Assembly: GCF_018457175.1 (NCBI RefSeq)
Contig: NZ_JAGFNU010000011.1
Location: forward strand, 1-64,000
Source of the DNA: Pseudohalocynthiibacter aestuariivivens
Lineage (GTDB): Bacteria; Pseudomonadota; Alphaproteobacteria; Rhodobacterales; Rhodobacteraceae
Reading direction: 5' to 3'
DNA length: 64,000 nt
The first letter of the stretch is position 1, and each line of letters opens with the position of its first letter. The notes beneath the pieces are model-generated. The model did not search any database, was not told where the DNA came from, and was given only the letters and a program-made list of their open reading frames with translations. Below, piece by piece: positions 1,052-63,951 of this stretch. Both the position numbers and the translations under genes were made by a program.

Positions 1052-1127
1052 TGGTGAGCCCTACTGGGTTCGAACCAGTGACCTACTGATTAAAAGTCAG
1101 CCGCTCTACCAACTGAGCTAAGGGCCC
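1052..1127 (-). tRNA. tRNA-Lys (anticodon TTT)
   Basis: Read on the minus strand from 1127, the sequence folds into a standard cloverleaf. The acceptor arm is GGGCCCT with AGGGCTC (one G-T pair). The D-arm contains AGCTCAGTTGGTAGAGC. The anticodon loop CTTTTAA carries TTT, and the T-arm contains GGTTCGAACCC. The discriminator base is A and CCA is encoded at 1054-1052. The length is 76 bases. The 3' end faces the repeat-rich, IS-containing left edge of the window. Confidence 0.95.
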
Positions 1128-1220
1128 TCACGAGGCGCCGTCTTAGGCAAGCTGACCGCAGGGGTCAAGGACGAAATTGCCTGAATCAGCCCTCTGGATT
1201 GATTTTTCCGCTTAACCTAT

Positions 1221-2072
1221 ATGATGCGCATGGCAGATTTGACTCTCCAGACGGGCGGGCTTCCGTTTCGCAAGATGCACGGGCTTGGCAATGACTTTGT
1301 TGTTGTCGACGCAAGAAGTGCGCCTGATTTGGTGAATGAAGATACCGCTCGGGCAATTGGGCACCGGTCTTTCGGGGTCGGCTTTGATCAGCTTGCGGTG
1401 TTGCGCGAGTCTGACGTTGCGGATCTGGATGTAGAATTCTGGAACTCTGATGGGTCAAAAGCAGATGCCTGCGGCAACGCCAGCCGTTGTGTTGCAAGGA
1501 TCATAATGGACGAAACCGGGCAGAAAGCTGCCAGCATCCGCACGGGACGCGGAACCCTGCAAGCCGTAGATGCCGGAGAGGGCCTGATCAGCGTGAACAT
1601 GGGACAGCCGCAACTGGAGTGGGATCAGATACCACTTGCCCATCCTGTTGATGATCTGAACGCCTTGCCAATTGAAGGGGCCCCCGGTGCTGCTGGTATT
1701 GGAAACCCACATATGGTTTTCGTCGTTAATGATGCAGAAGCTGTACCATTATCAGACGTCGGCCCAGCGCTGGAACATCACCCGCTATTCCCGGAGCGCA
1801 CGAACGTTGAATTCATTCATGTGATTGACCGTCAAACCTTGCGAATGCGCGTCTGGGAACGCGGCGGAATGATAACCCTCGCTTGTGGGTCTGGTGCCTG
1901 TGCTTCTGCGGTTGTGGCGCATCGCAAGGGTCTGACCGACCGCAAGGTGACGATCCATCTGGATGGTGGTGATCTCGAAATTGACTGGCGCGATGACGGT
2001 GTCTGGATGACTGGTCCAATTACGCATGTCTTTGACGGCGTAATCCGTCGTGAGTTTCTGGAAAACATCTGA
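1221..2072 (+). CDS. dapF: diaminopimelate epimerase
   Basis: The 283-residue product converts LL-diaminopimelate to the meso form, the cell-wall cross-linker and last precursor of lysine, in the cytoplasm. The two catalytic cysteines of the family are visible: Cys84 in ADACGNASRC and Cys222 in ACGSGACAS. The substrate-binding segment GLGNDFVVVD lies near residues 21-30. Length is normal. Three in-frame ATGs lie within the first four codons (1221, 1224, 1230) with no clear Shine-Dalgarno sequence, so the exact start is open and the message may be leaderless. The stop overlaps the mtaB start by one base, which suggests translational coupling. dapE, another gene of the same pathway, lies at the far right of the window. 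Confidence 0.95.
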   Translation: MMRMADLTLQTGGLPFRKMHGLGNDFVVVDARSAPDLVNEDTARAIGHRSFGVGFDQLAVLRESDVADLDVEFWNSDGSKADACGNASRCVARIIMDETGQKAASIRTGRGTLQAVDAGEGLISVNMGQPQLEWDQIPLAHPVDDLNALPIEGAPGAAGIGNPHMVFVVNDAEAVPLSDVGPALEHHPLFPERTNVEFIHVIDRQTLRMRVWERGGMITLACGSGACASAVVAHRKGLTDRKVTIHLDGGDLEIDWRDDGVWMTGPITHVFDGVIRREFLENI

Positions 2073-3334
2073 TGTCAGGCAGCCCCCCCCTTTTCACGAC
2101 GCTTGGCTGTCGCCTGAACGCCTATGAAACCGAGGCGATGAAAGAACTGTCTGCCGCCGCCGGTATCGAAAATGCTGTTGTCGTGAACACCTGCGCCGTC
2201 ACGGCAGAGGCTGTACGCAAAGCCCGGCAGGAAATTCGCAAACTGCGCCGCGCGCATCCTGACGCGAAACTGATTGTGACAGGCTGTGCAGCGCAGACTG
2301 AACCGCAAACCTTTGCCGAGATGGGCGAAGTCGACCTTGTCATCGGCAATACAGAAAAGATGCAGGCCAGCATCTGGGCATCCATGCGCGGCCCGGATTT
2401 CATCGGGGAAACGGAGCGCGTGCAGGTTGATGACATAATGTCAGTCACCGAAACAGCCGGGCATCTGATTGACGGGTTTGGCACAAGGTCGCGCGCCTAT
2501 GTTCAGGTTCAGAACGGCTGTGATCATCGCTGCACCTTTTGCATTATCCCTTATGGACGCGGCAATTCGCGGTCTGTCCCTGCTGGTGTTGTCGTCGATC
2601 AGATCAAGCGACTGGTCAACAAGGGTTACAATGAGGTCGTATTGACCGGTGTAGACCTGACAAGCTGGGGTGCTGATCTGCCCGCAACGCCACGCCTTGG
2701 CGACTTGGTGATGCGGATTCTCAAATTGGTTCCAGACCTGCCCCGCTTGCGGATTAGCTCGATAGACTCCATCGAGGCTGATGAAAACCTTATGCAGGCG
2801 ATCGCAACAGAACCACGTCTTATGCCGCACCTTCACCTTTCCTTGCAGGCGGGTGATGACATGATCCTGAAGCGCATGAAACGGCGCCATCTGCGGGACG
2901 ATGCAATCGCGTTCTGCGAAGAGACGCGTCGTTTGCGCCCCGACATGACTTTTGGCGCTGACATCATCGCGGGCTTTCCGACGGAAACGGAAGAAATGTT
3001 CGAAAACTCTCTGAAACTCGTGACCGAGTGTGACCTGACATGGCTGCATGTGTTTCCCTATTCAGCTCGTGAATGCACACCTGCAGCGAGGATGCCGGCT
3101 GTCGATGGGCGTGCAATAAAATCACGGGCGGCACGTTTGCGTGCGGCGGGCGAAGCTCAGGTTGCGCGCCATCTTTCCGATCAAGTCGGCAAAACCCACC
3201 ATATTCTGATGGAAAACCCGCACATGGGGCGGACAGAGCAGTTTACCGAGGTGAATTTTGCGGCTGATCAAACCGAGGGTAGCCTCGTCACAACCCGGAT
3301 AACGGGTTATGACGTTCATCGGTTAACAGCATGA
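2072..3334 (+). CDS. mtaB: tRNA t6A37 methylthiotransferase MtaB
   Basis: This 420-residue radical-SAM enzyme adds a methylthio group to N6-threonylcarbamoyladenosine at position 37 of ANN-reading tRNAs. The N-terminal UPF0004 domain carries three cluster cysteines, in TLGCRLN (Cys13), VNTCAVT (Cys41) and VTGCAAQ (Cys72). The radical-SAM motif CDHRCTFC supplies Cys150, Cys154 and Cys157. The LGCRLN signature and the length fit the MtaB branch better than MiaB or RimO. It sits between dapF (one-base overlap) and a glutathione S-transferase gene (four-base overlap), so all three are probably one transcription unit. The unit starts close to tRNA-Lys, but I infer no functional link from that. Confidence 0.9.
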   Translation: MSGSPPLFTTLGCRLNAYETEAMKELSAAAGIENAVVVNTCAVTAEAVRKARQEIRKLRRAHPDAKLIVTGCAAQTEPQTFAEMGEVDLVIGNTEKMQASIWASMRGPDFIGETERVQVDDIMSVTETAGHLIDGFGTRSRAYVQVQNGCDHRCTFCIIPYGRGNSRSVPAGVVVDQIKRLVNKGYNEVVLTGVDLTSWGADLPATPRLGDLVMRILKLVPDLPRLRISSIDSIEADENLMQAIATEPRLMPHLHLSLQAGDDMILKRMKRRHLRDDAIAFCEETRRLRPDMTFGADIIAGFPTETEEMFENSLKLVTECDLTWLHVFPYSARECTPAARMPAVDGRAIKSRAARLRAAGEAQVARHLSDQVGKTHHILMENPHMGRTEQFTEVNFAADQTEGSLVTTRITGYDVHRLTA

Positions 3335-58764: not shown

Positions 58765-59370
58765 TCAATTTGACCGGAGCTTCTCCAGATCGGCAATGCT
58801 GTCCACGTCCTGCATTTCATCAACCAATGCGATCCGTGCGCACCCAAGTGTTTCACATGTGTCAGACAAGGTATGTTCGCTAGACCAACGCACGCCGTGG
58901 AAAAGCGTTGTTGGCACGGGACCAACACGCTTTAACCCAACCAGCCAATACCCTCCATCCATTGCAGGGCCAAAAACCGCGTCATGATTTCCGAGGGCAC
59001 GAAATGCTTTGTTTATGTGTTGACGCGTCACACCCGGAATGTCGGCGCCGATAATGACAACCGGGCCATTTGGCATCATATGAAAAATGCGACCCATCCG
59101 GTCGCCAAGGTCGCCCGTTCCTTGCGGGATGCGTGGCAGATGCGTTGGCCAGACGCGGCTTGTCAAACCATCGGTATCTGGCGCGACCGAAAGTACAACA
59201 TCCCAACGCGGATCAGTTACATCGCGAAGCAATCGCCGCACCTGATGGCGAAACCACCAAGCCGCGGCTGTCTTGCCAATACCTCGCCCAAGCCGCGTTT
59301 TTACCCGACCGGGGCGCGGCTCTTTCACCATCACCACCAGTTGTTGACGGTATCTAGGCGAAATAGTCAC
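58765..59370 (-). CDS. DUF2064/TIGR04282-type glycosyltransferase-like protein
   Basis: The 201-residue protein starts [17 protein letters not shown], the nucleotide-binding opening of this GT-A-like family, and has [12 protein letters not shown] near residue 100 (metal-binding Asp), [14 protein letters not shown] near residue 132 and [17 protein letters not shown] near the end. Members occur near arsenosugar synthesis genes in some bacteria, but here no such genes are nearby, so that specific role is not supported. It overlaps the end of dapE by 17 bases. Confidence 0.85.
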
Positions 59371-60502
59371 GCAGGATCCGCCCGTAGATCGCTTTCAGTT
59401 GCGGTATCTGTTCAACTTCAACCCGCTCATCAACCTGATGCATTGTTTTGCCAACAAGCCCGAACTCCACCACCGGGCAATGGTCTTTGACAAACCGCGC
59501 ATCCGAGGTTCCACCCGACGTTGACGCGATTGGCCGCACGCCACATTCCGCTTCGACCGCTGTTGCGATCAGTTCTGACAGCGGGCCAGGTGGTGTTAAG
59601 AAGCTTTCCCCGGAAACCTGCGTTTCCATCTGGATATCAACGCCCGTCTGTTGGGTTACGACCGCTGCTTCCTTTGCCAGCCATTCGATCAGACTGTCGG
59701 AGGAATGCGCGTCGTTAAACCGAATGTTCACGGTTGCCTTGCATTCAGCAGGAATAACGTTGTTTGCCGGATTGCCCGCATCAATCGTTGTAACGGCAAG
59801 TGTGGATGCATCAAAATGGCCGGTACCTGTATCGAGTTCATGGCCTGCCAACCGATCGATCAACCGTGCCATGGCGGGAAGCGGGTTTAGCGCACGATGT
59901 GGATATGCTGAATGACCCTGAATACCTTTCGCCGTAAAATAGGCGGTCATGGAACCGCGCCGCCCGATTTTCATCATCTCGCCCATGTGGTTCGGGCAGG
60001 TCGGTTCGCCCACCAGACAGGCGCTCATCGCTTCGCCGTTCACCTTCATCCAGTCAAGAAGTGCAACGGTGCCGTCAATTGCATCGCCTTCTTCGTCGCC
60101 AGTTATGGCCAATACAACCGCACCATCCGGTGGCGTCTGCGTAACAAATTCAATTGCAGCGGCAGCAAATGCTGCGACACCCGACTTCATATCAGTTGCG
60201 CCGCGCCCCCACAAAAATCCATCTTTTTCCTCGCCACCAAAGGGATCGACTGTCCAAGCGGCTTCGTCGCCAACAGGCACAACATCGGTATGACCATTGA
60301 ACCCAAAGGTCTTCGGATGACCCTTTTCACCCCAACGTGCGAAGAGGTTTACTACTTCTCCGCGATCAACACGGGCGCAATAAAAACCTGCGCGCGATAA
60401 ATGCGTTTCCAGAAGTGCGAGCGCACCCCCATCAGCAGGGGTAACCGAAGGGCACCGGATTAGCTCCGCACAAAGTTCGACAACATCAATATCTTGGGTC
60501 AC
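59354..60502 (-). CDS. dapE: succinyl-diaminopimelate desuccinylase
   Basis: The 382-residue M20-family enzyme hydrolyses N-succinyl-LL-DAP to LL-DAP, the substrate of DapF encoded at 1221. Di-zinc ligands appear in [39 protein letters not shown] and the late [15 protein letters not shown]. The dimerisation domain is at about residues 178-295. Length is normal. It leads a dapE-DUF2064-rnr minus-strand group; the ATG follows GGAGGGGTAAGG. Confidence 0.96.
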
Positions 60503-60804: not shown

Positions 60805-62388
60805 ATGGTTACAGCATCGGAACTTCCGATCAACACCAAAGCTAACGCCGTTAGCATGGCAAATACGATATTTGGCGACGGTGTTACTGTTGTCGGCGCA
60901 AGTTACTCAGGCGACAAGAACTCATCCGGTACTTACTCAGACGGCGATAACACCTCCCCCGGTGTCACGCCGGGCGACACGGGCGTTATCCTGTCAACTG
61001 GACGTGCCAAGGATTTTACCAATTCATCGGGGCAGTCCAACCAATCGACCAATACATCCACCAACACCAAGGGTGTAAATAACGACCCAGACTTTAATTC
61101 TCTTGCCGGCACTAAAACCTACGACGCGTCAATGCTGGATGTCGATTTCATTCCGGACAGCAACATTTTGACAATGCAGTTTGTGTTCTCGTCTGATGAA
61201 TACCCGGAGTACACAAATTCAATTTATAATGACGCGGTCGGTGTTTGGGTAAACGGCAACCCCGTTCAACTGGCAATTGGCTCTGGCCAGACGAATGTCG
61301 GAAACGTCAACGACACCAACAACGTAAATCTCTACAATGACAACACGTCTGATGCGTTCAACACTGAAATGGACGGCTTTACTGTCACAATGACGCTCAA
61401 GATGGTTGTTGTACCCGGCCAATTGAACTCGATCCGGATCGGCATCGCGGACGTCGGGGATTCAAACTATGATTCAAATCTGCTGATCGCTGGAAACAGC
61501 GTTCAGACTGCGCTGATCGCATCAGATGATACAGTTGATATTGGAATAAGCGGCACTAAAACTCTTGACGTTCTCGCAAATGATACCGGCCCAAACGGAA
61601 GCTCGTTAACAGTTACACATATCAATGGAAACGCTGTCGTAGCAGGCGATACCGTGACACTGGCGACCGGGCAGCAGGTTTCTCTGAATGCGGATGGAAC
61701 GTTTTCCATTACAACAGACGCCGACGAGGAAAGTGTCAACTTCACTTACACCGTTGCAAATGGCGGTGGAAATGGGATTTCTGATACCGCATTTGTGACC
61801 GTCAACACGATACCGTGTTTTGTGGCTGGCACCATGATCCTTACGCCTGACGGTGAAGTGCCTGTTGAAACGCTTGAGCCCGGCAATCTGGTTATCACCC
61901 ATGACGACGGCCCCCAGCCCGTACGATGGATAGGCCAGCGACGTGTTCCAGCCAAAGACAATCTTGCGCCGATATGCATCAAGGCAAATACGTTTGGCTC
62001 GCATCGCGAACTTTTGGTGTCGCCGCAGCACCGGATTTTGATCAGCGATAGTCTTGCAGAACTGCTGTTCGGAGAAGCCGAAGTTTTGATCGCCGCTAAA
62101 GACCTCGTCAACGACTACACGGTACGTTCGCAAGAAGGCGGTATGGTTGACTATGTGCATATCCTGTTTGACCGCCATCAGGTCGTGTTCTCAGAAGGCC
62201 TGGCAACCGAGAGCTTTCTGCCCGGCCCTCAGACAACACGCAGCTTTGAACGGGAATGTGTTGAAGAGATATGTTCAATTTTTCCTGAACTTAATCCGGA
62301 TACTGGCCTTGGATACAGCCCGGCCGCGCGCCGAACCCTGCGCGCCTATGAAGCTCGGGTCTTGATTGCAAGGAGCGTTGCAGCGTAA
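60805..62388 (+). CDS. choice-of-anchor L / Ig-like / Hint domain protein
   Basis: The 527-residue protein has three parts. Residues 5-230 match the choice-of-anchor L domain (SMANTIFGDGVTVVGASYSGD, VFSSDEYPEY, DGFTVTMTL). Residues 240-335 form a cadherin- or VCBS-like beta domain (LDVLANDTG, VNFTYTVANG). From residue 336 comes a Hint domain with IPCFVAGTMILTPDG, nucleophile candidate Cys338, and SPQHRIL. No downstream extein is seen, so it could self-cleave or form an ester as hedgehog-like Hint domains do. I chose ATG 60805 after GGGGGCAGAC. It is probably secreted, although no classical signal peptide is visible. An earlier ATG at 60742 is less likely. Confidence 0.85.
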   Translation: MVTASELPINTKANAVSMANTIFGDGVTVVGASYSGDKNSSGTYSDGDNTSPGVTPGDTGVILSTGRAKDFTNSSGQSNQSTNTSTNTKGVNNDPDFNSLAGTKTYDASMLDVDFIPDSNILTMQFVFSSDEYPEYTNSIYNDAVGVWVNGNPVQLAIGSGQTNVGNVNDTNNVNLYNDNTSDAFNTEMDGFTVTMTLKMVVVPGQLNSIRIGIADVGDSNYDSNLLIAGNSVQTALIASDDTVDIGISGTKTLDVLANDTGPNGSSLTVTHINGNAVVAGDTVTLATGQQVSLNADGTFSITTDADEESVNFTYTVANGGGNGISDTAFVTVNTIPCFVAGTMILTPDGEVPVETLEPGNLVITHDDGPQPVRWIGQRRVPAKDNLAPICIKANTFGSHRELLVSPQHRILISDSLAELLFGEAEVLIAAKDLVNDYTVRSQEGGMVDYVHILFDRHQVVFSEGLATESFLPGPQTTRSFERECVEEICSIFPELNPDTGLGYSPAARRTLRAYEARVLIARSVAA

Positions 62389-62511
62389 CAGGGGCGAAGA
62401 CAAGAAAGAAAACCCTTGCTTACCTGTCAGACGCAACAGCCAAAACTGTGCATTTGCGCCGATACCGGACACCTGCAATGGGGCGAGCTGAAAAGAGTGT
62501 GATAATCCAAG

Positions 62512-63573
62512 ATGACCTGGCTGGCGCTTTGCGATTTTTCTAACTCATTTTTTTCTCCTCTTGGGATATCACATCCGTCGGCAGTAGGCGGTTCCAAACC
62601 ATCTGACGAGCAGCTTTTGGCAAAGGGTAGCCTTGTCATCGAAATTTCCACGCTTGAAGAAAATTCAAACGCATTGGAACTGATAAATTTTTATTCAGTT
62701 TCCGATTGGGGAACGCAGCTAAAAATCAGTCTTACACAGAACGACACTGTCATTTTACGACATATTCAGGGGTCACGTCAGATTACGTTGGAAACGGGGG
62801 AGGGCGCGCTTGTTCGCGCGCAACCCTCCAGGATCATTTTCTCCTGGGATGCCCCGCAACGCTGGGGGCAGCTAACGATTGAAAACCTTGATGACGGGTC
62901 TGTGCATACCAAAGACGTGTCGGATCCGTTGCCAGTTCCTGTCGTTGACGTCCATCACATGACGATGTCACCCGAAAGCACGCGTGCTGTTTCAGAAGTT
63001 CTGTTTTTTACGTTTTCGGACCAGATTGAAGAACATGGCCTTATCCCCGGAATTGTCGCGTCTTCACCGGTGGAAACGCCAAATGGGCCAGAGCTTGTGC
63101 AAAACCTGCGCGTGGGTGATTTGGTTTCAACACTGGACAGTGGTCCTCAGCCTATACGCTGCCTTATGGTGCGTGATGTTCCGGCGCATGGTCACTATCA
63201 GCCTTTGCGGCTTCGCGCCCCGTATTTCGAGCTAAACCAAGATATCATGGTTGCGCGGAATTTGCGTCTTTTGGTCGAAGGTGACATGGTCGAGTATCTT
63301 TTCGGAGAAGAAGAGGTCCTGATCAATGCAGAGCATTTGCAAGACACCTATTCCGTTTTACCCGAAACGCGATTGAAAACTATTCGCTACTATCAGTTAC
63401 TGTTTGACCGTCCAGAGATTTTGAACGTGGCGGGAAGTAGTGTTGAGAGCCTGTTCAGGCCACAACCATCTGGCGAAGATTTTTCAGATGAATTACCGGT
63501 TCACACCGAACCATCGCGACCAGTTTTACGCCCCTTCGAGGCCTACACGTTGAAATCTATGCGCGCAGGCTAG
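62512..63573 (+). CDS. Hint-domain protein lacking the catalytic cysteine
   Basis: The 353-residue protein has a beta-rich N-terminal half (residues 38-140) and a C-terminal Hint-like domain aligned with that of the preceding protein: IPGIVASSPVETPNG with Gly180 in place of the Cys, then LRVGDLVSTLDSGPQPIRCL, ARNLRLLVEGDMVEYLFGEEEVLINAEHL and a shared C-terminal RPFEAYTLKS tail. The QHR motif of the first protein is NLR here, so both likely catalytic residues are lost. It may be an inactive partner or binder. It starts 123 bases after the first Hint gene with no clear ribosome site, and codes the same direction. Confidence 0.8.
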   Translation: MTWLALCDFSNSFFSPLGISHPSAVGGSKPSDEQLLAKGSLVIEISTLEENSNALELINFYSVSDWGTQLKISLTQNDTVILRHIQGSRQITLETGEGALVRAQPSRIIFSWDAPQRWGQLTIENLDDGSVHTKDVSDPLPVPVVDVHHMTMSPESTRAVSEVLFFTFSDQIEEHGLIPGIVASSPVETPNGPELVQNLRVGDLVSTLDSGPQPIRCLMVRDVPAHGHYQPLRLRAPYFELNQDIMVARNLRLLVEGDMVEYLFGEEEVLINAEHLQDTYSVLPETRLKTIRYYQLLFDRPEILNVAGSSVESLFRPQPSGEDFSDELPVHTEPSRPVLRPFEAYTLKSMRAG

Positions 63574-63591: not shown

Positions 63592-63951
63592 TCAGGTATC
63601 ATAGAACGGTGTCATCTGCGCAACGATTACAGAGTTTTCAATAAGCGCACGGTTCATCAGGTCTTTTTCCTCGTCCCCGATATCGTGACCTTCAGCAAGC
63701 CGTTCCTCAAGTGTGCCGTACCCGGAAACATCCAGTGGTGCCATCTCTGCCTGCTTGAGGATCGCGACAGTTTCACGCACGGCCTCTGCTTCATCAACGC
63801 CCGACGCATAGATCATCAACGCCGCACCTGTTGCGGTTTTGGGTAACCCGTCACCCGTAGAACGGCCGACCTCGACCAGCAGGGTATAGACCTGCTGGCG
63901 AGATTTTTTCTTAGGCTTATCAGCTACTTTCTCAGTCACGAAGTAACTCAT
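63592..63951 (-). CDS. small conserved cytoplasmic protein, unknown function
   Basis: The 119-residue protein has a Lys-rich start (residues 8-17), then a mixed alpha-beta pattern including VYTLLVEVGRSTGDGLPKTATGAALMIYASG and two acidic helices (residues 52-68 and 81-104). I do not recognise the family. Composition and even codon use support a real gene. It is convergent with the second Hint gene, 18 bases apart. No strong ribosome site is visible before its ATG. The 49 bases after it to the window end show nothing. Confidence 0.7.
   Translation of the reverse strand: MSYFVTEKVADKPKKKSRQQVYTLLVEVGRSTGDGLPKTATGAALMIYASGVDEAEAVRETVAILKQAEMAPLDVSGYGTLEERLAEGHDIGDEEKDLMNRALIENSVIVAQMTPFYDT

Follow-up and report, generated by a model that had tools for sequence, protein, structure and literature searches.

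The genes and their domains

The window (i.e. the whole stretch of DNA that was analysed, 64,000 nucleotides in length) contains two adjacent open reading frames running in the same direction on the forward strand, as an initial annotation of the sequence had described. We call these genes A and B. Together with the genes on either side they comprise the following features.

59354 to 60502, reverse strand: dapE, the upstream neighbour (TIGR01246); upstream on the opposite strand in 91 of 92 loci
60805 to 62388, forward strand: gene A, choice-of-anchor-L, Big_9 and Hint_2 with catalytic residues intact (open reading frame and domain matches)
60856 to 61503, forward strand: choice-of-anchor-L domain of A (P0001 residues 39-254; NF038133, 170 bits)
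61513 to 61806, forward strand: bacterial Ig-like domain Big_9 of A (P0001 residues 258-355; 36 bits)
61813 to 62226, forward strand: Hint_2 domain of A (P0001 residues 358-495; PF13403, 180 bits)
61816 to 61818, forward strand: codon of the nucleophile Cys of A (Cys338 counted from 60805); the predicted cut is directly N-terminal to it (from the sequence)
62029 to 62031, forward strand: codon of the His of A (His409 counted from 60805) in an SPxH motif resembling the intein TxxH (from the sequence)
62512 to 63573, forward strand: gene B, 353 aa, jelly roll and non-catalytic Hint_2 (pseudo-Hint) (open reading frame and domain matches)
62602 to 63051, forward strand: predicted laminin-G/CBM40-like jelly roll of B, approximately residues 31-180 (AF2 model; 6er3, Z 11.8, rmsd 3.2 over 130)
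63049 to 63051, forward strand: codon of Gly180 of B, at the place of the catalytic Cys (alignment with A)
63055 to 63459, forward strand: pseudo-Hint_2 domain of B, residues 182-316 (PF13403, 103 bits; intein 6riy, Z 10.3, rmsd 1.9 over 70)
63262 to 63264, forward strand: codon of Leu251 of B, at the place of the catalytic His (alignment with A)
63592 to 63951, reverse strand: small protein of 119 aa between B and dapD; downstream on the opposite strand in 76 of 92 loci

The reading frame of gene A is open from 60742. Its homologs favour a start at 60805 (MVTASEL), many of them beginning with MVAASEL or a similar sequence, and with this start the numbering of the nucleophile as Cys338 in the initial annotation is correct. 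The matches of A to NF038133 (170 bits against a cut-off of 27) and to PF13403 (180 bits against a gathering score of 28.4) are both above the cut-off. The PF13403 match of B is also above the curated cut-off (103 bits against 28.4), and it lacks the first three profile positions, i.e. those occupied by P-C-F in A. The same profile is matched by all 13 members of the B sequence set A3.

The AF2 model of A has a mean pLDDT of 50.8 and was too poor for use. A PDB sequence search with A returned designed proteins, mostly beta-trefoils, that matched one short stretch, together with one weak BIL match. For B the model (13 sequences) has a mean pLDDT of 61.9; in blocks of 10 residues the values are 75-90 for residues 31-150, 53-66 for residues 151-180 and 44-83 for residues 181-310, and lower at the termini. 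Residues 31-180 of this model match jelly rolls of the laminin-G, neurexin, CBM40 and pentraxin types, so that a lectin-like protein with a jelly-roll fold is predicted. The N-terminal halves of the two proteins are thus those that had been noted in the sequence, anchor-L plus Big_9 in A and, in B, a 'short beta domain' that is modelled as the laminin-G/CBM40-like jelly roll. The likeness to the CBM40 and laminin-G jelly rolls lies in the predicted fold (Z up to 11.8); the CBM40 and sialidase matches have 8-10% identity to B, and B differs from them in being fused to a pseudo-Hint.

Residues 178-314 (approximately) of the B model match inteins with Z of 9.7-10.3 and rmsd of 1.7-3.0 over 66-75 residues, in a Hint region where the pLDDT is partly low. 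Searching the PDB with a B profile gave weak matches, at E of 0.013 or worse, to inteins, CBM40, a BIL domain and a phage tail protein. By its profile match B is a true Hint_2 homolog, and according to the predicted structure its HINT fold is of the intein type. The initial annotation had allowed that B might prove to be no Hint homolog; the PF13403 score and the predicted fold indicate that it is one.

Loss and retention in the pseudo-Hint domain of B

Hint domains are familiar as modules that cut their own chain or splice. Those of A and B are 34% identical over 169 aa (E 2e-24), the rest of the domain and the C-terminal tail aligning as had been observed, and the C-terminal motif L..xEA..L being shared. 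The nucleophile Cys and the SxxH motif are present in A, within IPCFVAGT and SPQHRIL. At the aligned positions B has IPGIVASS and ARNLRLL, so the difference first noticed in the sequence is seen directly in the alignment.

This loss of catalytic residues is conserved family-wide in B. We examined 122 B Hint domains, i.e. those of 121 loci plus the window, the 121 being made up of 29 family-search loci with a B match, 12 loci of named relatives and 80 from family-search rows; these are the best-scoring loci and not a random draw. Duplicate loci of the window's own genome and identical open reading frames were removed before residues were counted in these and in 92 A-type domains. Cys is present at the nucleophile position in 4 of the 122 B domains, the window B being among the 118 that lack it, and the assisting His is present in 14; none has both. 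Relatives of B with the Cys were a possibility raised at the outset, and among the domains examined they number these four. The common states at the nucleophile column are T (41), G (32), S (32) and A (11), while the assisting His is replaced by Gln in 100 of the 122, and by Leu in the window. By contrast, the A-type domains have Cys in 91 of 92 and His in 92 of 92. A second His that is constant in A (alignment column 129; 90 of the 90 A domains filled there) is Gln in 97 of the 122 B domains. Covariation of the two His-to-Gln changes within B was not significant (p 0.22). B has fixed residues of its own that are absent from A, for example Tyr at column 96 (99%) and Pro at column 71 (100%). 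The 38 B loci that have no adjacent A show the same loss (Cys 0/38, His 5/38).

The B genes are under purifying selection, with dN/dS of about 0.1. For 11 Sulfitobacter genes (55 pairs) dN/dS has a median of 0.097 over the whole gene, 0.093 in the pseudo-Hint and 0.124 in the N-terminal part; A in six of these loci (15 pairs) gives 0.050. The dS values of this comparison are near saturation, and the whole-gene value is not finite in 10 of the 55 B pairs and 3 of the 15 A pairs. The pseudo-Hint has therefore been retained after the loss of its catalytic residues, and a second, non-cutting use of the fold is probable.

Distribution, arrangement and origin of the gene pair

A survey of Rhodobacteraceae for the pair, as had been suggested, shows that the A-B pattern is real and far more widespread than a single genome could show. 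Relatives of P0002 at E ≤ 1e-20 are present in 195 of the 394 genomes of the window's family, some of these being Hint-only matches. The full-length B profile at E ≤ 1e-65 finds 148 of the 394, nearly all of them whole-length; partial matches are included, and at least four of the matches listed start past profile position 40. Class-wide, a sample of 385 genomes has full-length B in only four, all of the window's family, and the Hint part alone was matched in G293 (window's family) and G723 (another family). The named relatives comprise one MAG of the Paracoccaceae and eleven records of Sulfitobacter. The N-terminal profile of A at E ≤ 1e-30 matches 153 of the 394 family genomes and also catches paralogous A copies.

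At these thresholds 97 of the family genomes have both A and B, 56 A only, 51 B only and 190 neither. The co-occurrence is positive (Fisher odds ratio 6.5, p 4e-17, with genomes treated as independent and kinship ignored), and the genes are adjacent in at least 83 genomes among the A matches listed. A is absent at the threshold used from 51 of the 148 B genomes, one of which (G068) has a shortened A-like open reading frame. We inspected 20 A loci in which A scores at least 481 bits and a strict B match or its adjacency is missing: eight have a divergent, partial or truncated B-like open reading frame, and 12 have none. Each gene is thus dispensable to the other, and with absences in both directions we infer that the ancestral state was probably A-B and that either gene can be lost.

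In 83 of the 121 B loci the gene directly upstream, on the same strand, is A; the 38 scored as lacking it include L095, in which B reaches the contig end. In these 83 pairs the median distance from the stop codon of A to the start of B is 2 nt. The gap is 9 nt or less after the stop in 54 of the pairs, a 4-nt overlap is present in 23, and a start codon is found at the predicted start of B in 76. The gap in the window, at 123 nt, is wider than usual. A scan for promoters and terminators gave about as many matches as shuffled sequences.

The surroundings are also fixed. In the 92 loci L051-L142, where short flanks cause distant genes to be undercounted, a homolog of rnr (an RNB-domain gene) is found upstream on the other strand in 81 and a DUF2064 homolog likewise in 67; a dapD match is present in 68, of which 67 are downstream on the other strand. 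In the window's own genome dapD follows downstream and extends just beyond the window end (L230). The small protein encoded at 63592-63951 has no Pfam or NCBIfam match. The position of the A-B unit at one place in the genomes therefore points to a single old insertion, vertically inherited.

The initial annotation proposed that the Hint part was duplicated and that one copy then lost catalysis. The loss stands, conserved as set out above. B forms one clade (UFBoot 100 in one tree, SH-aLRT 99 in another) and lies outside A in both IQ-TREE and FastTree trees, the nearest row to it in the first tree being another Hint_2 protein of G054 (90). In an AU test with a mixture model, for which one A row (L165) was dropped, A and B as one clade were not rejected (p 0.675) and gave a slightly better tree. 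In its own genome the best match of B is the Hint of A, at 77 bits against 57 for the next. The sequences therefore neither show nor exclude an origin of B by duplication of the Hint of A.

B is one of several non-catalytic groups. The window's genome and four others have 11-17 Hint_2 matches each, many with intact residues. Of the 12 Hint_2 domains in the window's genome eight have Cys and His, one has the Cys shifted by two residues, and three (B, C40:149445 and C1:517904) have neither residue at its column. Of the 72 matches in the five genomes 67 were examined for residues, five mid-scoring ones being left out, and two repeat open reading frames were dropped before the counting: 41 have both residues, 21 neither and five a shifted Cys, one per genome. 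The 21 form five groups, and each has a single, well-supported branch of its own in the tree (SH-aLRT 98-100). B accounts for five of them and the AFARGT/GPxAR type for another five; a type of approximately 183 aa makes up four, one of approximately 240 aa four, and the LPGF type three. All non-catalytic lineages as one clade gave an AU p of 0.47, so that single and repeated loss both fit. As a pseudo-Hint family that is conserved and often stands beside an active Hint, B is one of five non-catalytic Hint_2 groups seen.

We note that two of the genes lacking both residues lie outside the window, at G000:C1:517904-518296 (L012) and G000:C40:149445-149888 (L010). The latter has a Cys one residue earlier, and open reading frames related to both, with the loss, are present in other genomes. 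The shifted-Cys gene (G000:C23:226742-227152, L008) has ACVSFGRGT and retains the His; it is found once in each of the four other genomes.

Probable function of A and B

A and B belong to the Hint_2/BIL family and, by the model of B, share its fold. A has the Cys and SPxH of these domains; B differs in lacking the catalytic pair in 122 of 122 domains and in its fusion to a jelly roll. Our explanation, which we hold with about even confidence, is that they form an old two-gene unit whose products are made together, A cutting itself and B remaining an uncut lectin-like protein with a repurposed Hint. A functional reading of this kind is plausible from the sequences and the model.

A would be an adhesin-like protein that lacks a Sec signal. 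Typical choice-of-anchor L proteins have both a signal peptide and a sorting signal. A has the NF038133 domain of these proteins, but without a signal peptide-like start and with a Hint domain at its C-terminus. From its motifs, and by analogy with characterized domains, this Hint most likely self-cleaves ahead of Cys338, cutting its own chain through a thioester. In BIL and Hedgehog-type Hint domains, as described in PMC4031507 and PMC7664689, the first residue undergoes an acyl shift, with the N-terminal part being cleaved off or transferred. The former states that type B BILs, which lack intein block G, cleave without splicing, and the latter presents the Hedgehog C-terminal domain, which is in the same HINT superfamily as the Hint of A and B, as the model for how an N-terminal part is transferred by way of a thioester. 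The cut in A could similarly free or hand on its anchor-L/Ig part.

Since B lacks the catalytic residues it most likely stays whole, its lectin-like jelly roll remaining attached to a Hint fold that has neither nucleophile nor assisting residues, and this fold might now be a fixed structural, binding or export module. The usual arrangement of the genes for co-translation makes it probable that uncut B and processed A are produced together and act at the same place. Cleavage of A, the integrity of B, the place of action and any contact between the two proteins are all what we infer from these features. B is best read as a pseudo-Hint family of long standing, lectin-like and often co-translated with a partner that would process itself.

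A crude hydropathy test found no Sec signal peptide-like N-terminus in A or B: the maximum of the mean hydropathy over 11 residues within the N-terminal 40 is 1.93 for B (n 110) and 1.61 for A (n 56), against 2.58 for the OmpA yardstick. Type I secretion was considered as a route and is not claimed, as no transporter of the window's own genome scores above the HlyB or PrtD model cut-offs; the best matches reach 380 bits where the cut-off is 726 and 245 bits where it is 510. A cytoplasmic location of A and B is therefore conceivable. One Hint_2 protein of the same genome carries RTX repeats. The C-terminus is -AA in 66 of 110 B and 42 of 68 A.

The main rival, which we think unlikely while taking it seriously, is that B is a regulatory partner. 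Its pseudo-Hint would bind the Hint of A and set the timing of cleavage or the acceptor; the target could alternatively be another of the Hint_2 proteins, of which there are 11-17 per genome, many with intact residues. The tight linkage of A and B with their frequent start/stop overlap, their positive co-occurrence and the selection on the fold despite lost catalysis would all be expected of such a partner. An enzyme and pseudo-enzyme pair had been suggested from the sequence, and the active copy does adjoin the non-catalytic one in most loci; an obligatory partnership is weakened, however, by the 51 of 148 B genomes that lack A and the 12 of 20 inspected A loci that lack B.

It is improbable that B retains Hint chemistry through another nucleophile, in the manner of the class 2 and class 3 inteins that lack Cys1. 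Splicing is possible for inteins of this kind according to PMC4031507 and PMC7664689, and Ser or Thr is at the Cys position in 73 of the 122 B domains, with Cys in four. However, 43 of the 122 have Gly or Ala there (Gly in the window B), Gln replaces the assisting His in 100, and at every other column of the B Hint Cys is present in at most 20 of the 122.

More speculative, and decidedly a long shot, is the idea that the conserved pseudo-Hint families of the Rhodobacteraceae, B together with at least four more, act in trans on the many active Hint proteins of these bacteria. In the A-B unit the thioester of A would then be passed to B, and the lectin-like B would be the anchor for the choice-of-anchor-L part of A.

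That B is the decaying remnant of a Hint protein is scarcely credible: it is missing or divergent in some A genomes and diverges faster than A, but the open frames at 121 loci, the Sulfitobacter dN/dS of about 0.1, the B-specific fixed residues and the mostly full length of B even where A is gone largely refute it. A contact-dependent system, which the initial annotation had raised as a possibility, or a polymorphic-toxin system has hardly any probability, although papers on CDI and MafB toxins use the term bacterial intein-like. Pfam searches of A, B and four neighbours and NCBIfam searches of A, B, dapE and the small protein revealed no toxin, immunity or two-partner-secretion (TpsB-like) domain. 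The neighbours include dapE, dapD, rnr and a DUF2064 gene, the nearest being housekeeping genes and one small gene in fixed synteny.

A non-catalytic Hint fold that is under selection and often co-translated with an active one would give the intein/Hedgehog superfamily a naturally occurring pseudo-enzyme. None of the literature titles among the matches listed names the A-B pair or a non-catalytic Hint_2, those for PF13403 being mostly on human HINT2. The A-B unit would offer a means of testing what the Hint_2 proteins, 11-17 in each of these genomes, do and whether non-catalytic roles exist for Hint domains.

Other combinations of Hint_2 genes were also seen. Non-catalytic and active Hint_2 open reading frames occur in tandem in L221 (G013; 1084-3226, strand coordinates) and on opposite strands in L195 (G140; 1440-3151, strand coordinates). 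In the window's own genome an intact Hint_2 protein (VPCFLKGT, SPSHRVL) is encoded on the reverse strand about 4 kb past the window end (L230:3959-5014). L091, L101, L111 and L135 each encode a second choice-of-anchor-L plus Hint protein a few kb away from the A-B unit.
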